A stretch of 47,765 nucleotides of DNA from Heminiphilus faecis (lineage in GTDB: Bacteria; Bacteroidota; Bacteroidia; Bacteroidales; Muribaculaceae): positions 1-47,765 of the forward strand of contig NZ_VSMC01000025.1 of assembly GCF_008728965.1 (NCBI RefSeq). The letters are read 5' to 3'. Below the pieces are notes generated by a model, which ran no database searches, had not been told where the DNA came from, and saw only the letters and a program-made list of their open reading frames with translations. This document shows positions 8,166-36,997 of this stretch, in pieces. How positions within the stretch are numbered: position 1 is the first letter of the stretch; every line of letters starts with the position of its first letter. The translations under genes were made by a program, and so were the position numbers.

Positions 8166-8990
8166 TCAATTATTATAATTATCAATCTTTTTTACAAAAC
8201 GCTTTATAACCTCCTCGCGACCGGCATCGACCTTGTCAGGATAATGGGCGTCACTGTTGACTACAATGGTGACACCGCTCTCTACAAGACGAGGCAGATA
8301 ACGGAATGAGGGGAAAATTCGCCGTTCACCCTCCCACACCTTCGTATTGATTTCAACAGCTACACCCGACTTGATTATGGCGTCTACAAGCCGGTCAACA
8401 CACTTTCCGTACCACACCTCATCCTCTATGCCGGGAGCAAACATGGACGCATTATGGCCTATTTTATCAAAATGTCCGATTATATCGAAGCCTCCCGCCT
8501 CCACCATATCTACCGACTGTCGGTAGAAGGTTTCTACGACATGACGTATATCATTATCAAAAAAACGCTCCATCTTGATCTTGAACGAGTCAAAGCGTCC
8601 GTCTACATCTACGTAACCGTCGCCGCACGGCAGAAAGTGCACAGAGCCGATGCGATAATCAAGAGGCACTGTATCAAAATAGCTGTGTGAAGGCCCCCAG
8701 TCATCACCGAGATAATCTATCTCCATTGATGTATAAAGGCTGATACGTGAACCGAAAACGGTCTTCAACCGCTGTACCTCCTCTACGTATGGAGCTACGT
8801 CATCCATCGGCATATTGCATGACGATTCTATAGGCACCGGAGAATGCGGTGAAAATCCCCAATGGAGCATGCCGGACTTAACGGCCGCCTCGGCCATGAC
8901 CGCCATGTCAGCCCGCCCGTCACAGAACTGTGTGTGGCTATGGAAATTGTACCGGTCGGTCGTTGATACTATATTTGAGAAGTCAATCAT
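8166..8990 (-). CDS. PHP-domain histidinol-phosphatase
   Basis: A 274-residue PHP metalloesterase. NFHSHTQFCDGRAD near the N-terminus supplies the HxH and acidic metal ligands; SMEIDYLGDDW, SVHFLP, GHFDKIGH, VEINTKVW and NSDAHYPDKV give the remaining ligands in the usual order. This is the HisJ/HisK type that dephosphorylates L-histidinol phosphate in histidine synthesis. No other his gene is nearby; it sits between cstA and metA in one direction, so a general phosphoesterase role cannot be excluded. Cytoplasmic. Confidence 0.85.
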   Translation of the reverse strand: MIDFSNIVSTTDRYNFHSHTQFCDGRADMAVMAEAAVKSGMLHWGFSPHSPVPIESSCNMPMDDVAPYVEEVQRLKTVFGSRISLYTSMEIDYLGDDWGPSHSYFDTVPLDYRIGSVHFLPCGDGYVDVDGRFDSFKIKMERFFDNDIRHVVETFYRQSVDMVEAGGFDIIGHFDKIGHNASMFAPGIEDEVWYGKCVDRLVDAIIKSGVAVEINTKVWEGERRIFPSFRYLPRLVESGVTIVVNSDAHYPDKVDAGREEVIKRFVKKIDNYNN

Positions 8991-21650: not shown

Positions 21651-22661
21651 ATGAAGCTATTACGTGATTTTGACCTTACTGCGACAACGACCTTTCATGT
21701 GCCCGCTCTGACAAGATGGTACGGCGAATTTGAAAATATCGAACAGCTGTGCGCCTTGCTTGAGGACCCGAGGCTGCAGGGCCTTCCACGCATGTGTATG
21801 GGAGGAGGCAGCAATCTGCTCTTCGTAAAGCCCTATGAAGGAATAGTGATAAGACCGGCATCCCGCGATATCACGCTTCTCGGCTCAGACAACGAAACTG
21901 TGTCGGTTAAAGCGGATGCAGGCGTGGTGTGGGATGATTTTGTGAAATTTTGCGTTGACAACGACCTTTTCGGAGCCGAAAACCTATCTTATATTCCGGG
22001 GGAAGTCGGTGCTTCTGCCGTACAGAATGTCGGAGCCTACGGTGTCGAGGCCAAAGACATAATATCTGCCGTACATGTATACGACACTACTGACCGGCGG
22101 CAAAAAGTACTTGATGTGACTGACTGCGGTTACGGATACCGCGACAGTATGTTCAAGAAATTTCCGTCGCGCTACATAGTTCTTGATGTCACTTACAGGT
22201 TATCCTGCAAAGAAAGCTATAATCTTGAATATGGGCCGTTAAAAGAATTGAAGGAGGATGCTGACCTGTCGTTGCGTAAAGTGCGCGAACGTATAATAAA
22301 TATACGCAAGTCCAAACTCCCCGACCCCGAATATATGGGCAGTGCCGGTTCTTTTTTTAAAAATCCGGTCATAACCCTTAAACATTTCAATGCATTAAAG
22401 GAGCGTTATGCCGATATTCCGAGTTATCCTGCAGGTCAAGGCATGATTAAGGTTCCGGCGGGATGGCTTATCGAACGGTCAGGACTTAAAGGCGTTGCCG
22501 TAGGAGGAGCGCAGGTGTATACGCGCCAATGCCTTGTCATAGTAAATACGGGAAATGCCACCGCCGATGATGTAGTGGCCCTGTATCGCCATGTACAGGA
22601 TACCGTATCGGATAAATTCGACATATTATTATCTCCGGAAGTAAACATAATCGGCCTATGA
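21651..22661 (+). CDS. murB: UDP-N-acetylenolpyruvoylglucosamine reductase
   Basis: MurB reduces UDP-GlcNAc-enolpyruvate to UDP-MurNAc with NADPH and FAD, the second committed step of peptidoglycan synthesis, in the cytoplasm. It is a 336-residue type I enzyme: MGGGSNLLF near residues 50-58 and YIPGEVGASAVQNVGAYGVE bind FAD; the catalytic Ser is in GSAGSFFKNP and the Glu in LSPEVNIIG at the C-terminus. It shares an ATGA overlap with the MBL hydrolase gene downstream, so the two are translationally coupled. Confidence 0.97.
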   Translation: MKLLRDFDLTATTTFHVPALTRWYGEFENIEQLCALLEDPRLQGLPRMCMGGGSNLLFVKPYEGIVIRPASRDITLLGSDNETVSVKADAGVVWDDFVKFCVDNDLFGAENLSYIPGEVGASAVQNVGAYGVEAKDIISAVHVYDTTDRRQKVLDVTDCGYGYRDSMFKKFPSRYIVLDVTYRLSCKESYNLEYGPLKELKEDADLSLRKVRERIINIRKSKLPDPEYMGSAGSFFKNPVITLKHFNALKERYADIPSYPAGQGMIKVPAGWLIERSGLKGVAVGGAQVYTRQCLVIVNTGNATADDVVALYRHVQDTVSDKFDILLSPEVNIIGL

Positions 22662-24478: not shown

Positions 24479-25795
24479 TCAGCGTTGTTTGCGGCCGAAA
24501 GCAGACGGGACTTTTATAAAGACGGTGACGGCTATGGTGACACAGCAGCAACCCATTATCCACCAGAAGAATCCGGTGTATCCCATCTGCTCCTGAAGCC
24601 ATCCGGCCGCCATACCGGGCAGCATCATGCCAAGCGCCATGAAACCTGTACATATTGCATAATGAGCCGTACGAAACGGACCGTCGCTGAAATATATCAG
24701 GTAAAGCATATATGCTGTGAATCCGAATCCGTAACCAAACTGCTCTACAAAAACACATATATTTATTGACAGCAGATCGACAGGCTGAACAAAAGCCAAG
24801 TAAAGAAATGTACTGCATGTGAGCGATATGCTCCATGCCATAGGCCGAAGCCAGCGCTTCAAGCCACCGCGGGCTGCTACAATACCGCCTATTATACCCC
24901 CGGCGGTAAGACCGAGTATACCCACCGTACCGTACACAAAGCCTACCTCGGCCGTCGACAGCCCGAGTCCGCCCAGTTCACGTCCGTCAAGCAAAAACGG
25001 ATTTATCATCTTTACCAATTGCGCTTCAGGAAAGCGGTAGAGCAGCATGAACGCAATGGCTATACCCGCATGCGGCTTCTTGAAAAACGATACAAACGTA
25101 TTGACAAACTCCCGCCCGGTTTCGCGCCATGTCATCTCCACGGCGGCATGATCCGATGACGGCCGCGGCAATATCCACCAATGATATATGGTGACCGACA
25201 GGAAAAACACCGACAAGACACCCATTACAGTCATCCATGCAATCGGAGTGTAGTCCATACTTTCACCGGGCGACAGTGCGTCATTGAGGTTTTCAATATA
25301 ACCGGCAAGCATCACAAGCACTCCCTGCCCCACTATCGTGGCTATACGGTAAAACGTACTTCGTATGCCTACATAAAACGACTGCTGGTGCTCCGACAAT
25401 GCAAGCATGTAGTAGCCGTCGGCGGCAATGTCGTGAGTCGCGCTCAGAAAAGCCACCGCCCAGAATACCGCCAGTGTCGCCTGAAAGAAAAATGTAAGCG
25501 GTATGGTAAATGCGATACCGGCAAATCCTATGGCTATGCACATCTCCATCAGCACGATCCACCTCCGCTTGGTGCCGAACAGATCCACCACCGGACTCCA
25601 GAACGGTTTTATGACCCACGGCAGATAGAGCCATGACGTATAAAGAGCTATATCGGTATTGGATATGCCGAGGCGCTTGTACATTATGACCGATATGGTC
25701 ATGACAGCCACATATGGAAGCCCCTGCGCAAAATAAAGCGTCGAGACCCACGTCCATGGCGAAACACGGTTAATAGATGCGTTTGAGTTCTGCAT
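24479..25795 (-). CDS. AmpG-like major facilitator permease
   Basis: A 438-residue inner-membrane transporter with about 12 hydrophobic segments. The start TWVSTLYFAQGLPYVAV, the loop FWSPVVDLFGTKRRWIVLME and SATHDIAADGYYMLAL are hallmarks of AmpG-type permeases, which bring anhydro-muropeptides into the cytoplasm for recycling. The gene overlaps the preceding DUF4922-SpoIID gene by 26 bp and is last in a three-gene minus-strand operon. Substrate is inferred from family and context; other MFS substrates are possible. Confidence 0.85.
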   Translation of the reverse strand: MQNSNASINRVSPWTWVSTLYFAQGLPYVAVMTISVIMYKRLGISNTDIALYTSWLYLPWVIKPFWSPVVDLFGTKRRWIVLMEMCIAIGFAGIAFTIPLTFFFQATLAVFWAVAFLSATHDIAADGYYMLALSEHQQSFYVGIRSTFYRIATIVGQGVLVMLAGYIENLNDALSPGESMDYTPIAWMTVMGVLSVFFLSVTIYHWWILPRPSSDHAAVEMTWRETGREFVNTFVSFFKKPHAGIAIAFMLLYRFPEAQLVKMINPFLLDGRELGGLGLSTAEVGFVYGTVGILGLTAGGIIGGIVAARGGLKRWLRPMAWSISLTCSTFLYLAFVQPVDLLSINICVFVEQFGYGFGFTAYMLYLIYFSDGPFRTAHYAICTGFMALGMMLPGMAAGWLQEQMGYTGFFWWIMGCCCVTIAVTVFIKVPSAFGRKQR

Positions 25796-27779
25796 TTTTA
25801 AAATAATGTGCTAATATCTGACGGTAATCATATCCCTGCTCGCTCATTACTGCCGCTCCTATCTGGCAAAGGCCTACCCCATGCCCCCACCCGGCTCCGT
25901 AAAGCGTGAAGCCGGAGGCATCCTTTACCGGCACAAAAGCTGAGCTGTACAGATGTGTCGGCGACAGCCACCGGCGTATCTCAAGTTCCTTTCCTACCAC
26001 TTTCACAGCTTTGCTTCCTACGATACGCAGCCGGTCTATGCGGCCCGAGACTCCGCGCGACAATGGCTGCAACTCCTTGATCACCCCGAAGTCTATGCCC
26101 GAGCGCATATATACAAGTTCTGACAACTCCTCAACCGTATACCTGACCGACCAGCGGTAAAAATCTTTAGTGGCAAGGTCATAATCGTTGAGTACCTGCC
26201 GGAGCGTGTCAGGGCCGGCTTGCGCACAAAAGGCGTCGGGACGGCCCATGATCCAGTCACGGGCTACGTCCTCATCGCGAAGGTCGGGCAACGGTTGCTC
26301 CGGCATCAGGTCGCGTCCACGTTCAAGATAATTGTGATGTACATGCTCCCAGCAATGCTCAAACTCCTCAAACGCACCGCCGCAGCATTTTGAGAAGCGG
26401 GTATCACACAGTTTTCCGTCCGACATGAGCACTTCACCCCATGTCGACATCACCGCACGCCTCGCCTCGTCGCGTGTTATACGGGTCACACCCTGATAAC
26501 GCTGGCAGTGGTCATCGGCACATACGTCGAAATACTCGTGATCGTCATGGTCATACCACTTAACAATCTCGTCGTCGCCTCTATCAGCTTCGCGGCAAGT
26601 ACATGAGTTCTCTTTACGCTCAAGCTGCGCCATGACCCAACTGCGCGATATGACGGCATGCGCTTTCAACAGCTCGAGAGAAGCCTTGGCACTCATTTCA
26701 GAAGATATGACACTTGTCAGGTAATCCTCAACGGGTACGACATTGACAGCCACACGGCCTTCGGGCAGGTCAAGCAGCTGCAGCGCTCCGGCAAACATCT
26801 GCTTCTCCTTGCGCTGCCAGTGAAATCCGACACCGATGGTCACATCCTCAAGTTCAAAACGACATGTTTCATCCTCTGGAAAAAACGTATCGTTCTCCTT
26901 TCGGTAATCACCGACAAGTCTGTATCTGATATCGTCGGCCGACATTATGCCGACCCTTATACTCGGCTGCCTGCTTATATAGGCTACATCTTCAAGTATT
27001 TCCACGGCCTTTTCGTCATCGAGTGCGGCGAAATCAGCCTCCGAAGTCACGATAAATGTACCCGACATGTCAATGGCACCGGGGCTCACATGCAACCGTT
27101 CATAACAGCGCGGACGGTGTGCGCGGCGCGGTATTATGACAGCCTCCATATTGCCGTCGGGAAGCATGTGTACAGCCATGTTTACCATAGGCTCGTAATC
27201 GCCCTCCGGCACCGGTAGCGCACGAAGCGCCTCCTCCAGCTGCGACACAATCTTGTCAGGCGGCTCTACCATATATATACACCTGAACGCATGCTTCCGG
27301 TCAAGCGGCATGTACTCTTCAGGCACCCCTTGAAAATGACTGTGATCGGGAGCTGAGGCCCCGCACCGTGGACCGTTGTAAAACACCGTGTATCCGTCAA
27401 GTGCATGTGCGAAGTGTATCATGTCGGCCACATGTCCGGCTATCTCCTGCCTTACATGGGAGCGATTTATTATAGTGAGGTGACCCGGAAATACCGGATA
27501 CGGATTTACACATATGTCATAATTGCCGTCTGTGACCGACATCTGCTCCACAGGACGCGAACCGCTACATAAAAAACATTTACGCGCGGCTATGGACCGG
27601 CTGTCGACAGATGCGAGTGTACTTATGCTTCTCGAACTGTTGTACATGACCGACACGGCTGTACCGTTGACATTCAGCTGCTTTACCGTGATACCGGCAA
27701 GAGCCTTGTGACGGGCCGCCGCCTCCGGCCAAACGTCAAGTTGTCTTCTTACAAAATCTTTTATATCGTCACTCTTCAT
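25770..27779 (-). CDS. DUF4922 (GalT/HIT-like) to SpoIID/LytB fusion
   Basis: A 669-residue two-part protein. Residues ~1-235 are DUF4922: CFLC (Cys68, Cys71) as a likely zinc pair, NPYPVFPGHLTI, and PDHSHFQ (His146, His148, Gln150), the HxHxQ motif by which GalT and Ap4A-phosphorylase enzymes form a nucleotidyl-histidine. Residues ~271-669 are a complete SpoIID domain: IRVGIM at the start, VISSEMS with the presumed catalytic Glu361, the Cys-rich CCGGAFEE, and the C-terminal GWGHGVGLCQIGA. SpoIID proteins are lytic transglycosylases acting on stripped glycan. There is no signal peptide or membrane segment, so both halves seem cytoplasmic. It overlaps the GT2 gene by 11 bp and the AmpG gene by 26 bp. 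Confidence 0.88.
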   Translation of the reverse strand: MKSDDIKDFVRRQLDVWPEAAARHKALAGITVKQLNVNGTAVSVMYNSSRSISTLASVDSRSIAARKCFLCSGSRPVEQMSVTDGNYDICVNPYPVFPGHLTIINRSHVRQEIAGHVADMIHFAHALDGYTVFYNGPRCGASAPDHSHFQGVPEEYMPLDRKHAFRCIYMVEPPDKIVSQLEEALRALPVPEGDYEPMVNMAVHMLPDGNMEAVIIPRRAHRPRCYERLHVSPGAIDMSGTFIVTSEADFAALDDEKAVEILEDVAYISRQPSIRVGIMSADDIRYRLVGDYRKENDTFFPEDETCRFELEDVTIGVGFHWQRKEKQMFAGALQLLDLPEGRVAVNVVPVEDYLTSVISSEMSAKASLELLKAHAVISRSWVMAQLERKENSCTCREADRGDDEIVKWYDHDDHEYFDVCADDHCQRYQGVTRITRDEARRAVMSTWGEVLMSDGKLCDTRFSKCCGGAFEEFEHCWEHVHHNYLERGRDLMPEQPLPDLRDEDVARDWIMGRPDAFCAQAGPDTLRQVLNDYDLATKDFYRWSVRYTVEELSELVYMRSGIDFGVIKELQPLSRGVSGRIDRLRIVGSKAVKVVGKELEIRRWLSPTHLYSSAFVPVKDASGFTLYGAGWGHGVGLCQIGAAVMSEQGYDYRQILAHYFKNAELKRIY

Positions 27780-29091
27780 TGCGCGTTCTATTTAAATCGA
27801 TTCGTGCTGAAAGCTCCCACGACCTTATACGGTCCTTGTAGAAATTATTGCGATTAAGCGCTTCGAGCGACAACGAGGCGTCGGAATTACCCTCCCACCG
27901 GCGACACAGATAAAGCGACTCGTATATGCGTCCCACTTTATAGTTGCGCGACACGGCAAGAGCCATTGCATAATCCTCTCCATAAGATGTATCGGGAAAC
28001 AGCAGCTCACGCGCTATCGGCGTATAAAAAGCCCGCGGTGCGCCGAATCCGTTGATACGCAACGCATTGTTACGACCGTTTCCGTCGGTCCACTCATTGT
28101 GCGATATAAGTCCCGGCGCCATGACATTTTTATTTATATCGGTAAGAGTATAGGCGCCGACCACCATTGCACACCGCTGCTCATAAAATTTATCTACTAT
28201 AGCTTGCAATGTGTCAGGCGACTCATACAGGTCATCGCTGTCAAGTTGCACCGCAAACCGGCCGCAATGCTCCGACATCAGTGCCATATTCCAGCACCCG
28301 CCTATGCCGAGGCCCTCGATGTCGGGTATTATATGTATAAGCTTGGGCTCCTCTGCCGATAACCGGGCCAAAATCCCGGTTGTACCGTCGGTCGACCGAT
28401 TGTCGACCACAATGATATTATATCTGAAAGCTGTATTCTGCACCAAAGCGCTCTTTACGGCATCGCCAATCGTAGCGGCCCTGTTGCGCACCGGTATAAT
28501 AACCGAAGCCTCCACGGGCAGGTCATCGCAAAACTCCACCGGCATCGCTGTTTTAGCGTCTATATATGCATCCACCGCTTTCAGATGGTCGGTACAGGCC
28601 TCCTCCATCTCAATCTGAACATCGCGGTTACGTGGATTAACATAATCAAATTGCGACACTGTATCATCACTCTGCTCAACTTTATACAAAGGCTCATTTA
28701 TATGTACTATTCTTCCCTGACGCGATATCGCAAGCCATAAAGCATAAAAGGCAGCATAACGATAGTCGCGTCTTACCGCTACGAGAGCACTTTCCAGCGC
28801 ACATCGTTCAACACACAGCACATGGCCGAAATCGAAGTCATCGCGAAGCGACCCCGGCTGCATATCTATCAGAGGGTGTACCGCAAAGCTACCGTCAGCA
28901 CAGATATCGGCATAGTCGGCATAAACCATAACCGCGCCCGTCATACGGGCCACCTGCTGCATACGGTGCAACGCTCCGGGCATAAGAGTCACCCTGCTTC
29001 CACGCTTCTTCAATATCACATATTCGGTCGACAAGCCGTCGCACAACGACATAATCCCGTCACCCGAGCATAAAAAATCAATTTCAATCAT
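27769..29091 (-). CDS. Glycosyltransferase family 2 protein, two modules
   Basis: The C-terminal half (about residues 200-440) is a standard GT2 domain: ASVIIPVRNRAATI, VVDNRSTDGTTGIL, VQLDSDDLY with the metal-binding DxD, and the late GEDYAMAL. The first ~190 residues resemble a second, degenerate GT-A module that lacks the nucleotide-binding start (VYADYADI, then INEPLYKV-Q-DD). The start is ATG 29089-29091 (MIEIDFL); three upstream codons were rejected. No membrane segments, so probably cytoplasmic. First gene of the operon with the DUF4922-SpoIID and AmpG-like genes. Acceptor and donor sugars unknown; recycled muropeptide sugars are suggested only by the neighbours. Confidence 0.85.
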   Translation of the reverse strand: MIEIDFLCSGDGIMSLCDGLSTEYVILKKRGSRVTLMPGALHRMQQVARMTGAVMVYADYADICADGSFAVHPLIDMQPGSLRDDFDFGHVLCVERCALESALVAVRRDYRYAAFYALWLAISRQGRIVHINEPLYKVEQSDDTVSQFDYVNPRNRDVQIEMEEACTDHLKAVDAYIDAKTAMPVEFCDDLPVEASVIIPVRNRAATIGDAVKSALVQNTAFRYNIIVVDNRSTDGTTGILARLSAEEPKLIHIIPDIEGLGIGGCWNMALMSEHCGRFAVQLDSDDLYESPDTLQAIVDKFYEQRCAMVVGAYTLTDINKNVMAPGLISHNEWTDGNGRNNALRINGFGAPRAFYTPIARELLFPDTSYGEDYAMALAVSRNYKVGRIYESLYLCRRWEGNSDASLSLEALNRNNFYKDRIRSWELSARIDLNRTRNEE

Positions 29092-29097
29092 AATACA

Positions 29098-29131
29098 CAA
29101 ACTTACTAAATAAAATGCGACTAATCACAAT
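29098..29131 (-). promoter_or_regulatory. Promoter giving a near-leaderless message
   Basis: On the minus strand, ATTG (29128-29131) is followed after 22 bp by a perfect TAAGTTTG (29098-29105). The -7 box ends only 6 bp before the GT2 start codon, so transcription would begin at or next to the ATG. Confidence 0.45.
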
Positions 29132-34759: not shown

Positions 34760-34799
34760 GGCCTATCGGGTTACGTCATTTCACGTGGCCCAATAGGTC
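34760..34799. promoter_or_regulatory. 17-bp hairpin between convergent genes
   Basis: Arms 34760-34776 and 34783-34799 pair over 17 positions (one C-A mismatch, three G-U pairs) with loop CATTTC. It straddles the stop codon of the MurU-like gene. No T tract follows on either strand, so it may act as a 3'-end stabiliser or a T-less bidirectional terminator. Confidence 0.55.
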
Positions 34800-35516
34800 A
34801 GCAGCCGCAGCAAGCGTGCTGTGTTTCCCGATATCAAACCAATAGTATCCACAATCGGGCTCGTAACTTTTTATAATCATGTCGCGGCATACGCTTATAT
34901 AGAACGGAATAATCGAAAACGGCCGTAGCGGCGCATACTCGCACAACGGCTTCAGCATTGACGGCGATATGACATGTATGCCTCCGAACGCGCGCATACC
35001 GAGTCCTGTCATATCCAGTCCGTGAGGAAGCACCTCGCCCGTCGATACATTGGTCCACCCTTTCATACGCTTTTCTCGGTCAAAAAGTAGGTACCGCGAC
35101 GTAGCCCGATCAGAAGTCAATAATGTGGCGTCAGCTCCCGATTCACAGTGACAGCGGTATAATCTGCCGAGGTCAAGATCAGTAAGTATGTCTACATTAT
35201 GCACGAGAAACGGCTCGCCGCCGTCAAGCAACGCCGAAGCGGCTGCAATGCCGCCGCCTGTGTCAAGCAACAGCTGCCTCTCGTCGCTCACTTTTATATC
35301 TATGCCGAAATATCCGTTATTTTCAAGAAAATCCTCTATCTTATCGGCAAAATGATGCACATTTATCACCACCTCATCAAACCCGTAACGGACCAGATTC
35401 ATGATGACACGCTGCAACGCCGGCACTCCGGCCACCTCAACAAGAGCCTTGGGCCGGTTCTCGGTCAAAGGGAGCAGCCGAGTACCCAACCCGGCTGCAA
35501 AAATCATAGCTTTCAT
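34776..35516 (-). CDS. murU: MurU-like sugar-1-phosphate nucleotidyltransferase
   Basis: A 246-residue cytoplasmic nucleotidyltransferase. The N-terminal signature AAGLGTRLLPLTENRPKALVEV binds the nucleotide; DTGGGIAAA and the metal-binding HNVDILTDLD follow in the usual order. Size and motifs match MurU, which makes UDP-MurNAc from MurNAc-1-phosphate and UTP and so bypasses de novo synthesis (fosfomycin-insensitive salvage). The assignment rests mostly on the ATGA overlap with the upstream AmgK-like kinase, the same pairing known from Pseudomonas. A GDP-mannose or glucose-1-phosphate transferase remains possible. The stop codon lies in a strong hairpin. Confidence 0.8.
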   Translation of the reverse strand: MKAMIFAAGLGTRLLPLTENRPKALVEVAGVPALQRVIMNLVRYGFDEVVINVHHFADKIEDFLENNGYFGIDIKVSDERQLLLDTGGGIAAASALLDGGEPFLVHNVDILTDLDLGRLYRCHCESGADATLLTSDRATSRYLLFDREKRMKGWTNVSTGEVLPHGLDMTGLGMRAFGGIHVISPSMLKPLCEYAPLRPFSIIPFYISVCRDMIIKSYEPDCGYYWFDIGKHSTLAAAADLLGHVK

Positions 35517-36997
35517 CGGTTTTGTTCAGTACGAGGATTAAATGTTTCTCTGATACCGCGTTCAAAGTGAGTCAACTCGACACGCACGTCAGGATAGGCC
35601 TTGTGTATATAACGCGCCAGACAATCGGCACAATATACCGAGCGATGCCGGCCTCCGGTACATCCGAAACTTACCATCAGATCGGTGAAACCACGCTCGC
35701 GGTATACCGCCACCGAACGGTCGACCATCTTGCACGCCTCGTCGACAAAGTCTTTGATATCGCTTTTTGTCTCAAGAAAATCTATCACCTCGCTATCGCG
35801 GCCCGACAGCTTCTTATATTCATCATAACGTCCGGGGTTGTGGAGCGCCCTGCAGTCAAATACAAAACCGCCTCCGTTGCCCGATATATCGCGCGGTATG
35901 CCATGACGATTGTAACCGAAACTCGCCACTTTCACAGTCAACTTATCGGCAGGCTCAACCCGCCGGTAACGCGGTATAGCCGCCACCTCCCGCAAGAGCT
36001 GACACAGATACCCGTACCGTGATTCAATCCTCGGCTCAAGACCTTTTACATTTTCAAGCGCATACGGTATGCTCTGCACGAAATGCGACTTGCCCTCGAA
36101 GTTGCCTCTGTAACCGTAAGCGCCAAGTACCTGAAGCAGGCGAAACAGCACAAAGTCATCAAGATGACGGCAAAATTCAACCCGGTCTATGTCGGCATAC
36201 CGCTTGGCACTGTCAAGATAAGCCGTTATCAGCTTCTCCCGCAATCTATCGGGATAAGAGGCCTTGGCCTGCCACAGAAAAGAAGCTACGTCATAATAGC
36301 ACGGACCACGGCGTCCGCCCTGAAAATCGATAAACCATGGTGCACCGTCTTTTATCATGACATTGCGCGACTGGAAATCACGATACATGAACACATCGCT
36401 CTTCGCCTCGAGCAACGCCATGGCAAGCCTGTCAAACTGTTTCTCCAAAAGCGACTCATTGTACCTCACGCCCGACGGCAACAGAAAACAATATTTAAAG
36501 TAATTCAGATCCCATGAGACAGACACATAGTCCATCTGCGGCACGGGAAGGCGGTTTATGTCAAGTCCGGCGATACCGCGCCACTGAAAGTCGGCCAAGG
36601 CTGCAATCGTCTTTTTAAGCATGTCGATAATATCGTCATTCCACTCTCCCCCGTCACGTCCGCGGGCAATGTAGTCAAACAGCGACATATCGCCAAGATC
36701 CTCCACCAGATAATGTGCGCCCGAGTCGCTTACCGCGAGGACCTCAGGCACCGGCAACCCCTTGTCATAAAAATTCTCGGCGAGATAAACAAACGTATTG
36801 TTCTCGCTTAAATCCTCACTTGATACACCTACTACATCCACGACTCCCGACAGCCTGTAATAACGGCGGTTAGAGCCGGCACCCGGCATACGCACCACTG
36901 CTTGGGGGAATATTCCGGTGATACGCTCATAAAGTATCGACAATACCTGTTCGTCGTCACCGCCGTACGATATATTCTTAACTATACTGTCATACAT
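35513..36997 (-). CDS. AmgK-like sugar kinase fused to RapZ C-terminal domain
   Basis: A 494-residue fusion. Residues 1-345 are an aminoglycoside-phosphotransferase-fold kinase close to AmgK (anomeric MurNAc/GlcNAc kinase): GSNRRYYRL, VEDLGD, YRDFQSRNVM (Asp207, Asn212; Tyr replaces the usual His) and IDFQGGRRGP (Asp224). Residues 354-484 match the RapZ C-terminal domain: VFDCRALHNPGRYDEY, GRDSEVIDFLE and SFGCTGGRHRSV. In E. coli this part binds GlcN6P and, with RNA, controls GlmS levels. The RapZ N-terminal ATPase is absent. The stop overlaps the MurU-like start, so the pair is coupled. A possible -7 box (TATCTTTA) lies at 37022-37029. I infer a kinase regulated by, or reporting, amino-sugar levels. 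Confidence 0.88.
   Translation of the reverse strand: MYDSIVKNISYGGDDEQVLSILYERITGIFPQAVVRMPGAGSNRRYYRLSGVVDVVGVSSEDLSENNTFVYLAENFYDKGLPVPEVLAVSDSGAHYLVEDLGDMSLFDYIARGRDGGEWNDDIIDMLKKTIAALADFQWRGIAGLDINRLPVPQMDYVSVSWDLNYFKYCFLLPSGVRYNESLLEKQFDRLAMALLEAKSDVFMYRDFQSRNVMIKDGAPWFIDFQGGRRGPCYYDVASFLWQAKASYPDRLREKLITAYLDSAKRYADIDRVEFCRHLDDFVLFRLLQVLGAYGYRGNFEGKSHFVQSIPYALENVKGLEPRIESRYGYLCQLLREVAAIPRYRRVEPADKLTVKVASFGYNRHGIPRDISGNGGGFVFDCRALHNPGRYDEYKKLSGRDSEVIDFLETKSDIKDFVDEACKMVDRSVAVYRERGFTDLMVSFGCTGGRHRSVYCADCLARYIHKAYPDVRVELTHFERGIRETFNPRTEQNR

Follow-up and report, generated by a model that had tools for sequence, protein, structure and literature searches.

The stretch analyzed here, a 47,765-nucleotide window of Heminiphilus faecis (Bacteroidales, Muribaculaceae; contig NZ_VSMC01000025.1 of assembly GCF_008728965.1), encodes on its minus strand a 669-residue protein with an ATG start (25770..27779), which joins a DUF4922 half (residues 1–271; 26967..27779) to a SpoIID half (residues 272–669; 25773..26966). 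This fusion, proposed in a preliminary description of the DNA, was confirmed by profile searches of both halves. The SpoIID half matches PF08486 over residues 343–452 (E 2.2e-22; 80 bits against a curated cut-off of 23) and the NCBIfam superfamily profile TIGR02669 SpoIID_LytB (150.6 bits against 83.3). The DUF4922 half matches PF16269 over residues 9–152 (E 8.8e-53) and also Ap4A_phos_N (E 8.1e-6). Between positions 24479 and 29100 of the window, the genes for a GT2 glycosyltransferase, DUF4922, SpoIID and an AmpG-like transporter lie next to each other in the order known from Tannerella forsythia. In Bacteroidales, these four proteins form an almost strictly co-inherited set.

In a structure model of the fusion protein (mean predicted local distance difference test score 81.2), the fold of the SpoIID half matches SpoIID and SleC structures. 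This half retains Glu361 (26697..26699), at the position we take from SpoIID to be catalytic, together with the segment C420-A-D-D-H424-C425 (26505..26522), whose two cysteines and histidine presumably form a zinc site, and the GHG motif GWGHGVGLCQIGA (residues G630–A642; 25854..25892). The alignment comprised 60 rows of the predicted cytosolic type, 11 of them fused, and 16 exported paralogues, of which 12 loci came from genomes with weak matches only and four from genomes with the cluster; loci L006, L010, L040, L042–L045, L052, L053, L082, L106, L110, L114 and re-fetched copies were not among the 60. Glu361, C420, H424 and C425 occur in 60/60 cytosolic and 16/16 exported rows, and Q426 and the GHGxGxxQxGAxxM motif are common to both groups; H633 is, like Glu361, invariant in the cytosolic rows, so that a catalytic glutamate and the GHGxGxxQxGA pattern are both in place. 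A chance or mis-called open reading frame (ORF) is ruled out by these invariant motifs and by the presence of SpoIID-half orthologues (E ≤ 1e-50) in 37 of the 149 Bacteroidales genomes surveyed.

The window protein thus has the domain, catalytic glutamate, probable zinc ligands, GHG motif and fold of the exported SpoIID/SpoIID-LytB lytic transglycosylases (PF08486, TIGR02669; structures 5i1t and 4rwr). What sets it apart is the lack of a signal peptide, the fusion or co-inheritance with DUF4922 and GT2, and membership in a separate clade. As the preliminary description had held, the fusion protein has no membrane segment (its 19-residue mean hydropathy peaks at 0.94) and, by reading of its N-terminus, no signal peptide, and thus neither the signal nor the anchor of exported SpoIID. 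From hydropathy and reading of the N-termini, signal peptides were found in none of 49 stand-alone orthologues and in 16/16 exported paralogues. Because the crude hydropathy scores do not fully separate the two groups (orthologues reach 2.09, whereas paralogues go down to 1.52), the call rests on the N-termini, which in the cytosolic orthologues start straight with the fold (EPxVxVGI). The 49 loci exclude L106, L114, re-fetched copies (among L054–L093), L110, whose frame is broken by a stop, and L006 and L010, which are over-long mechanical ORFs with a true start region that carries no signal.

A quick tree of 76 rows parted the cytosolic clade from the 16 exported paralogues with a Shimodaira–Hasegawa-like approximate likelihood ratio (SH-aLRT) of 100. 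On these sequence grounds, Bacteroidales carry two kinds of SpoIID, one predicted to be exported and the other cytosolic. The 60 cytosolic rows show complete or near-complete conservation of FHW (319–321), H414, D422, D423, R427, D459, R461, K464, E471, R575, R580, K597, E598, R602 and H609, which are not typical of the exported rows; among the latter, the position of K597 is Lys in 4/16 and position 602 is Lys in 7/16. This pattern suggests that cytosolic SpoIID possesses a distinct, anion-binding active site.

The DUF4922 half has the whole-domain fold of the GalT/Ap4A-phosphorylase branch of the HIT superfamily. Its H146-S-H148-F-Q150 (27330..27344), a nucleotidyl-transfer motif that aligns with DHKHLQ of Apa2 and includes an HxHxQ with the nucleophilic histidine, is invariant in 38/38 rows, as is C68xxC71 (27567..27578), whose cysteines are possible metal ligands by analogy with GalT. 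This alignment was restricted to hits that span at least 80% of the query, and it omits loci L001 and L002. Identity to the Apa2/GalT branch is 17%, and, unlike its members, DUF4922 carries an extra invariant CxxC, is bacterial and is linked to wall recycling; GalT as its closest relative was ruled out, since in the fold comparison it ranks far below Apa2. All residues named in the preliminary description, namely C68xxC71, H146-S-H148-F-Q150, E361 and the GHG motif, were found as claimed, and a search for their loss in close homologues, which would have spoken against it, returned invariant motifs throughout (60/60 and 38/38 rows).

Upstream of the fusion gene and overlapping it by 11 bp lies the GT2 gene (27769..29100, minus strand; PF00535, 2.8e-19), with a true start probably at the ATG at 29091; its structure model is similar to UDP-type GT-A enzymes, including chondroitin polymerase. 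On the other side, a major facilitator superfamily transporter gene (24479..25795, minus strand) overlaps the fusion gene by 26 bp. We call it AmpG-like because its TIGR00901 match (E 2e-49) scores only 168 bits, the curated cut-off being 350. Its counterparts in many Bacteroidales are about 600–640 residues long (family F6, for example L060:10537-12414), with an insertion of about 190 residues where the window protein has residues 176–184. MurB is encoded on the opposite strand 1.8 kb past the AmpG-like gene (21651–22661).

Within three genes of SpoIID, 73 loci contain AmpG in 53 cases, GT2 in 49 and DUF4922, fused or near, in 47. DUF4922 and SpoIID are fused in 19 loci including the window, a biased number, since the fused protein itself was the query in the search that yielded 16 of them; the two share one ORF in only four (G000, G008, G111 and G126) of the 36 Bacteroidales genomes that have both. 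Fusion as the key novelty was ruled out, the halves being mostly separate genes. Two changes of the fused label are needed on the SpoIID tree, and a single origin is compatible with the starred branches. A second direction of fusion, GT2 to DUF4922, was found in four loci and in L046 (L046, L051, L058, L080, L089), and in G126 one open frame (L135:985-3999; at least 1005 residues, ended by the contig end) runs through GT2 and DUF4922 into the beginning of SpoIID, a candidate three-way fusion. Such fusions are classic evidence that GT2, DUF4922 and SpoIID serve a shared task.

Recurrent neighbors in 63 loci were NamZ (27), the family to which we presume ybbC of T. forsythia to belong, a MurK-like kinase (16; named by gene order, its BcrAD match being weak and under the cut-off), a large Golvesin_C/fn3 protein (12) and MurQ (8). 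The Golvesin_C/fn3 protein (about 1000 residues; family F7, for example L073:12542-15538) probably matches, by position, the gene listed as 'xanthan lyase' in T. forsythia and possibly acts outside on the wall. Outside Bacteroidales, a gene of about 170 codons stands beside DUF4922 towards GT2 (L104:10672-11181, L107, L114 and L116, the last with 222 codons); it appears GNAT-like by eye only.

Across the 149 Bacteroidales genomes, DUF4922 was found in 36 and GT2 in the same 36; an AmpG-like match (E ≤ 1e-20) was found in 39, which are all 37 SpoIID genomes plus G087 and G142. Any SpoIID match occurs in 85 genomes, and the 48 with weak matches only (best 2e-11, mostly to the C-terminal 60 residues) were taken to contain exported paralogues alone. 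The AmpG-like matches of G087 and G142 (37–38% identity) and of G111 (40%) may represent another transporter. Because several pairs are unlinked and lie on different contigs (for example SpoIID and DUF4922 in G133, G105, G144 and G010), the co-inheritance does not merely reflect linkage. A phylum sample of 296 genomes, covering SpoIID (E ≤ 1e-25), DUF4922 and AnmK, gave SpoIID in 40, of which 37 lie outside the class of the window, and all 40 have DUF4922; weak DUF4922 matches were seen in G175, G284 and G308. Of 19 loci fetched outside Bacteroidales, five have all four genes (L102, L104, L107, L115, L116) and five more show one to three partners.

We further surveyed other recycling genes. 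Neither the H. faecis genome nor the fusion protein itself has a match to AnmK (PF03702), and no true MurQ was found in that genome, its only TIGR00274 match (1e-8) being a GlmS-like frame of 624 residues. At E 0.001, TIGR00274 matched in 142/149 genomes, weak matches looking like GlmS SIS domains in frames of about 610–640 residues; MurQ as an obligate partner was ruled out, since 21 genomes pass the cut-off and H. faecis is not among them. All four GH3 proteins of H. faecis, one of them NagZ-like with KHFPGHGDTDNDSH, carry signal peptides by reading, leaving no unexported GH3. AnmK is present in 98/149 Bacteroidales genomes, but in only 4/37 cluster genomes (G007, G038, G125, G128) versus 94/112 others (Fisher 7e-16, uncorrected for kinship), and 110 of the 112 cluster-free genomes have no match to the window AmpG at E ≤ 1e-20. 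We infer that two sets may exist, one combining disaccharide import with the cluster and the other combining another import with AnmK.

About 6 kb from the cluster, two adjoining minus-strand genes encode an AmgK-like kinase domain with a RapZ C-terminal domain (35513..36997; PF01636 3.5e-11, PF22740 1.6e-31, NF045759 6e-14, below cut-off) and a MurU-like uridylyltransferase (34776..35516; NF045761 6.1e-35, 121 bits, cut-off 250). The RapZ C-terminal domain senses glucosamine-6-phosphate. The former gene, the only APH match in the genome, is by sequence the candidate N-acetylmuramic acid (MurNAc)-1-kinase of H. faecis, and both are context outside the four-gene set. With these genes present, free MurNAc could be re-used if something frees it from the imported disaccharide, a step for which the four-gene cluster is the best candidate.

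A comparable arrangement has been described in T. forsythia. According to PMC5388701, Tanf_08345-08370 (xanthan lyase, gtf, gtf, lytB, ampG, ybbC) forms one transcript by reverse-transcription PCR and adjoins murTKQ (08375-08385; tags also in PMC5790795), and the AmpG, 24% identical to that of Escherichia coli, is functional in an E. coli reporter assay. The operon order fits loci L066 and L112, a correspondence based on annotation and gene order rather than on sequence. Its SpoIID and DUF4922 halves are separate genes, unlike the fused H. faecis gene, and 08355 is annotated as a glycosyltransferase, yet sits at the DUF4922 position. As reported in PMC7670621, this AmpG imports the disaccharides of N-acetylglucosamine (GlcNAc) with 1,6-anhydro-MurNAc (anhMurNAc) or MurNAc, mainly peptide-free; no AnmK is predicted, and the conversion of anhMurNAc 'remains to be explored'. 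The Waddlia SpoIID is a muramidase on denuded glycans, according to PMC6635528. In our literature search, which took in few subscription papers and no preprints, no function was reported for SpoIID, DUF4922 or GT2 in such a setting, and by locus tag PMC5388701 alone, among the papers listed, treats the T. forsythia cluster genes. As far as these searches show, the enzyme families are known, and the cytosolic combination and its near-obligate AmpG link have not been functionally described.

These observations enable us to propose a putative model, all reactions of which we infer. It is quite probable that AmpG, SpoIID, DUF4922 and GT2 constitute a module that salvages AmpG-imported wall sugars; for the full proposal, with the fusion protein as a cytosolic enzyme of this peptidoglycan-salvage module, our confidence stands at about even. 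Initially, AmpG would import peptide-free GlcNAc-anhMurNAc and GlcNAc-MurNAc, which the three enzymes would turn into reusable sugars, in this lineage taking the place of NagZ and AnmK. The E. coli NagZ–AnmK route presumably performs the same task, obtaining reusable sugars from GlcNAc-anhMurNAc, but without homology to the cluster. The SpoIID half would act at C1 of MurNAc like lytic transglycosylases, but in the opening direction, where Glu361 would protonate the 1,6-anhydro bridge and GlcNAc-MurNAc would arise with water or a different acceptor; this ring opening is plausible, at somewhat less than even confidence. Afterwards, GT2 and DUF4922 would carry out a nucleotide-sugar step; in one scheme that fits, GT2 in reverse would convert GlcNAc-MurNAc and UDP to UDP-GlcNAc and MurNAc, and DUF4922, as a nucleoside-diphosphate-sugar phosphorylase, would convert UDP-GlcNAc and phosphate to GlcNAc-1-phosphate and UDP. 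As written, this GT2/DUF4922 scheme is tentative and more likely wrong than right in its details. Finally, MurNAc would join the AmgK–MurU route. In a kinase-free variant, which we consider quite improbable, the SpoIID half would open the bridge with a phosphate or nucleotide acceptor, storing the ring strain in activated MurNAc (MurNAc-1-phosphate or nucleotide-linked GlcNAc-MurNAc); R427, R461, K464, R575, R580, K597 and R602 would bind the anionic partner, DUF4922 and GT2 would move the nucleotide, and the disaccharide would return straight to wall synthesis.

The preliminary description had envisaged one protein that trims imported muropeptides and then phosphorolyses or nucleotidylates a product; this interpretation was partly supported, a link to intracellular wall recycling being probable, whereas muropeptide trimming fits poorly with the mainly peptide-free disaccharide cargo of T. 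forsythia AmpG (PMC7670621). The same cargo makes it unlikely that the SpoIID half is an ordinary lytic transglycosylase or muramidase trimming longer imported oligosaccharides in the cytoplasm, with DUF4922 acting on the product. The glutamate, GHG motif and probable zinc ligands held in common with exported SpoIID, and the fold match to SpoIID and SleC, would suit such an enzyme; however, GlcNAc-anhMurNAc contains no MurNAc-GlcNAc bond, and many residues fixed in the cytosolic clade are different among the exported paralogues. Alternatively, the module might be biosynthetic, with GT2, DUF4922 and SpoIID assembling a glycan or glycoconjugate out of amino sugars that the transporter simply brings in. 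A forward-acting GT2 is the default reading, its model comes closest to UDP-type synthases, chondroitin polymerase among them, and the T. forsythia authors also term the operon glycosylation-related (PMC5388701). The AnmK pattern, together with linkage to AmpG, NamZ, MurQ and MurK-like genes, nevertheless points to salvage, and no polymerase or flippase occurs among the 10 annotated recurrent neighbor families, other families being unannotated; we therefore rate biosynthesis as distinctly unlikely. A non-catalytic SpoIID half, binding imported muropeptides and regulating the other enzymes as their sensor or scaffold, would agree with the annotation of some SpoIID/LytB proteins as amidase enhancers (PMC5388701), but is very improbable given the 60/60 invariance of Glu361 and other core residues not obviously needed for binding alone. 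The least probable reading, with hardly any weight, is export by a non-classical route to act on the wall outside. The absence of signal peptides in 49 orthologues against their presence in all 16 paralogues, the fusion to a nucleotide-dependent fold in 19 loci and the single G126 frame in which it follows a GT2 domain speak against it, even though, to our knowledge, all characterized SpoIID proteins act outside the cytoplasm.

Several points weigh against the salvage model itself. We know of no SpoIID with ring-opening activity. The AmpG, AmgK and MurU assignments all fall below curated cut-offs, and the search for a cytosolic hexosaminidase covered GH3 but not GH20 or GH84. The sole AmpG match of G111 is as distant as those of the cluster-free G087 and G142. 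G096 (L022, L071; 93% complete) has SpoIID and AmpG and neither DUF4922 nor GT2, the only sampled Bacteroidales genome of that kind; G371 of the phylum sample has a strong DUF4922 without SpoIID at the thresholds used, and 9/19 non-Bacteroidales loci (L099, L100, L105, L108, L110, L111, L113, L117, L118) show no partner in view. Complementarity with AnmK is weaker in the phylum sample, with AnmK in 16/40 SpoIID genomes (one, G364, by a weak, fragment-like match) versus 191/256 without SpoIID (Fisher 3e-5, uncorrected for kinship); as a strict rule it is ruled out, both coexisting in many non-Bacteroidales genomes. Because the genomes share ancestry, the Fisher values exaggerate the strength of the association, and in Bacteroidales a single ancient replacement could account for it.

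In summary, Bacteroidales are major gut and oral bacteria, and the use of anhydro-muramyl sugars without AnmK is an open question in print for T. forsythia (PMC7670621). The near-strict co-inheritance of three uncharacterized cytosolic enzymes with AmpG names candidates and makes this question directly testable. If true, the proposed module would provide an intracellular role for SpoIID enzymes and a pathway for DUF4922.

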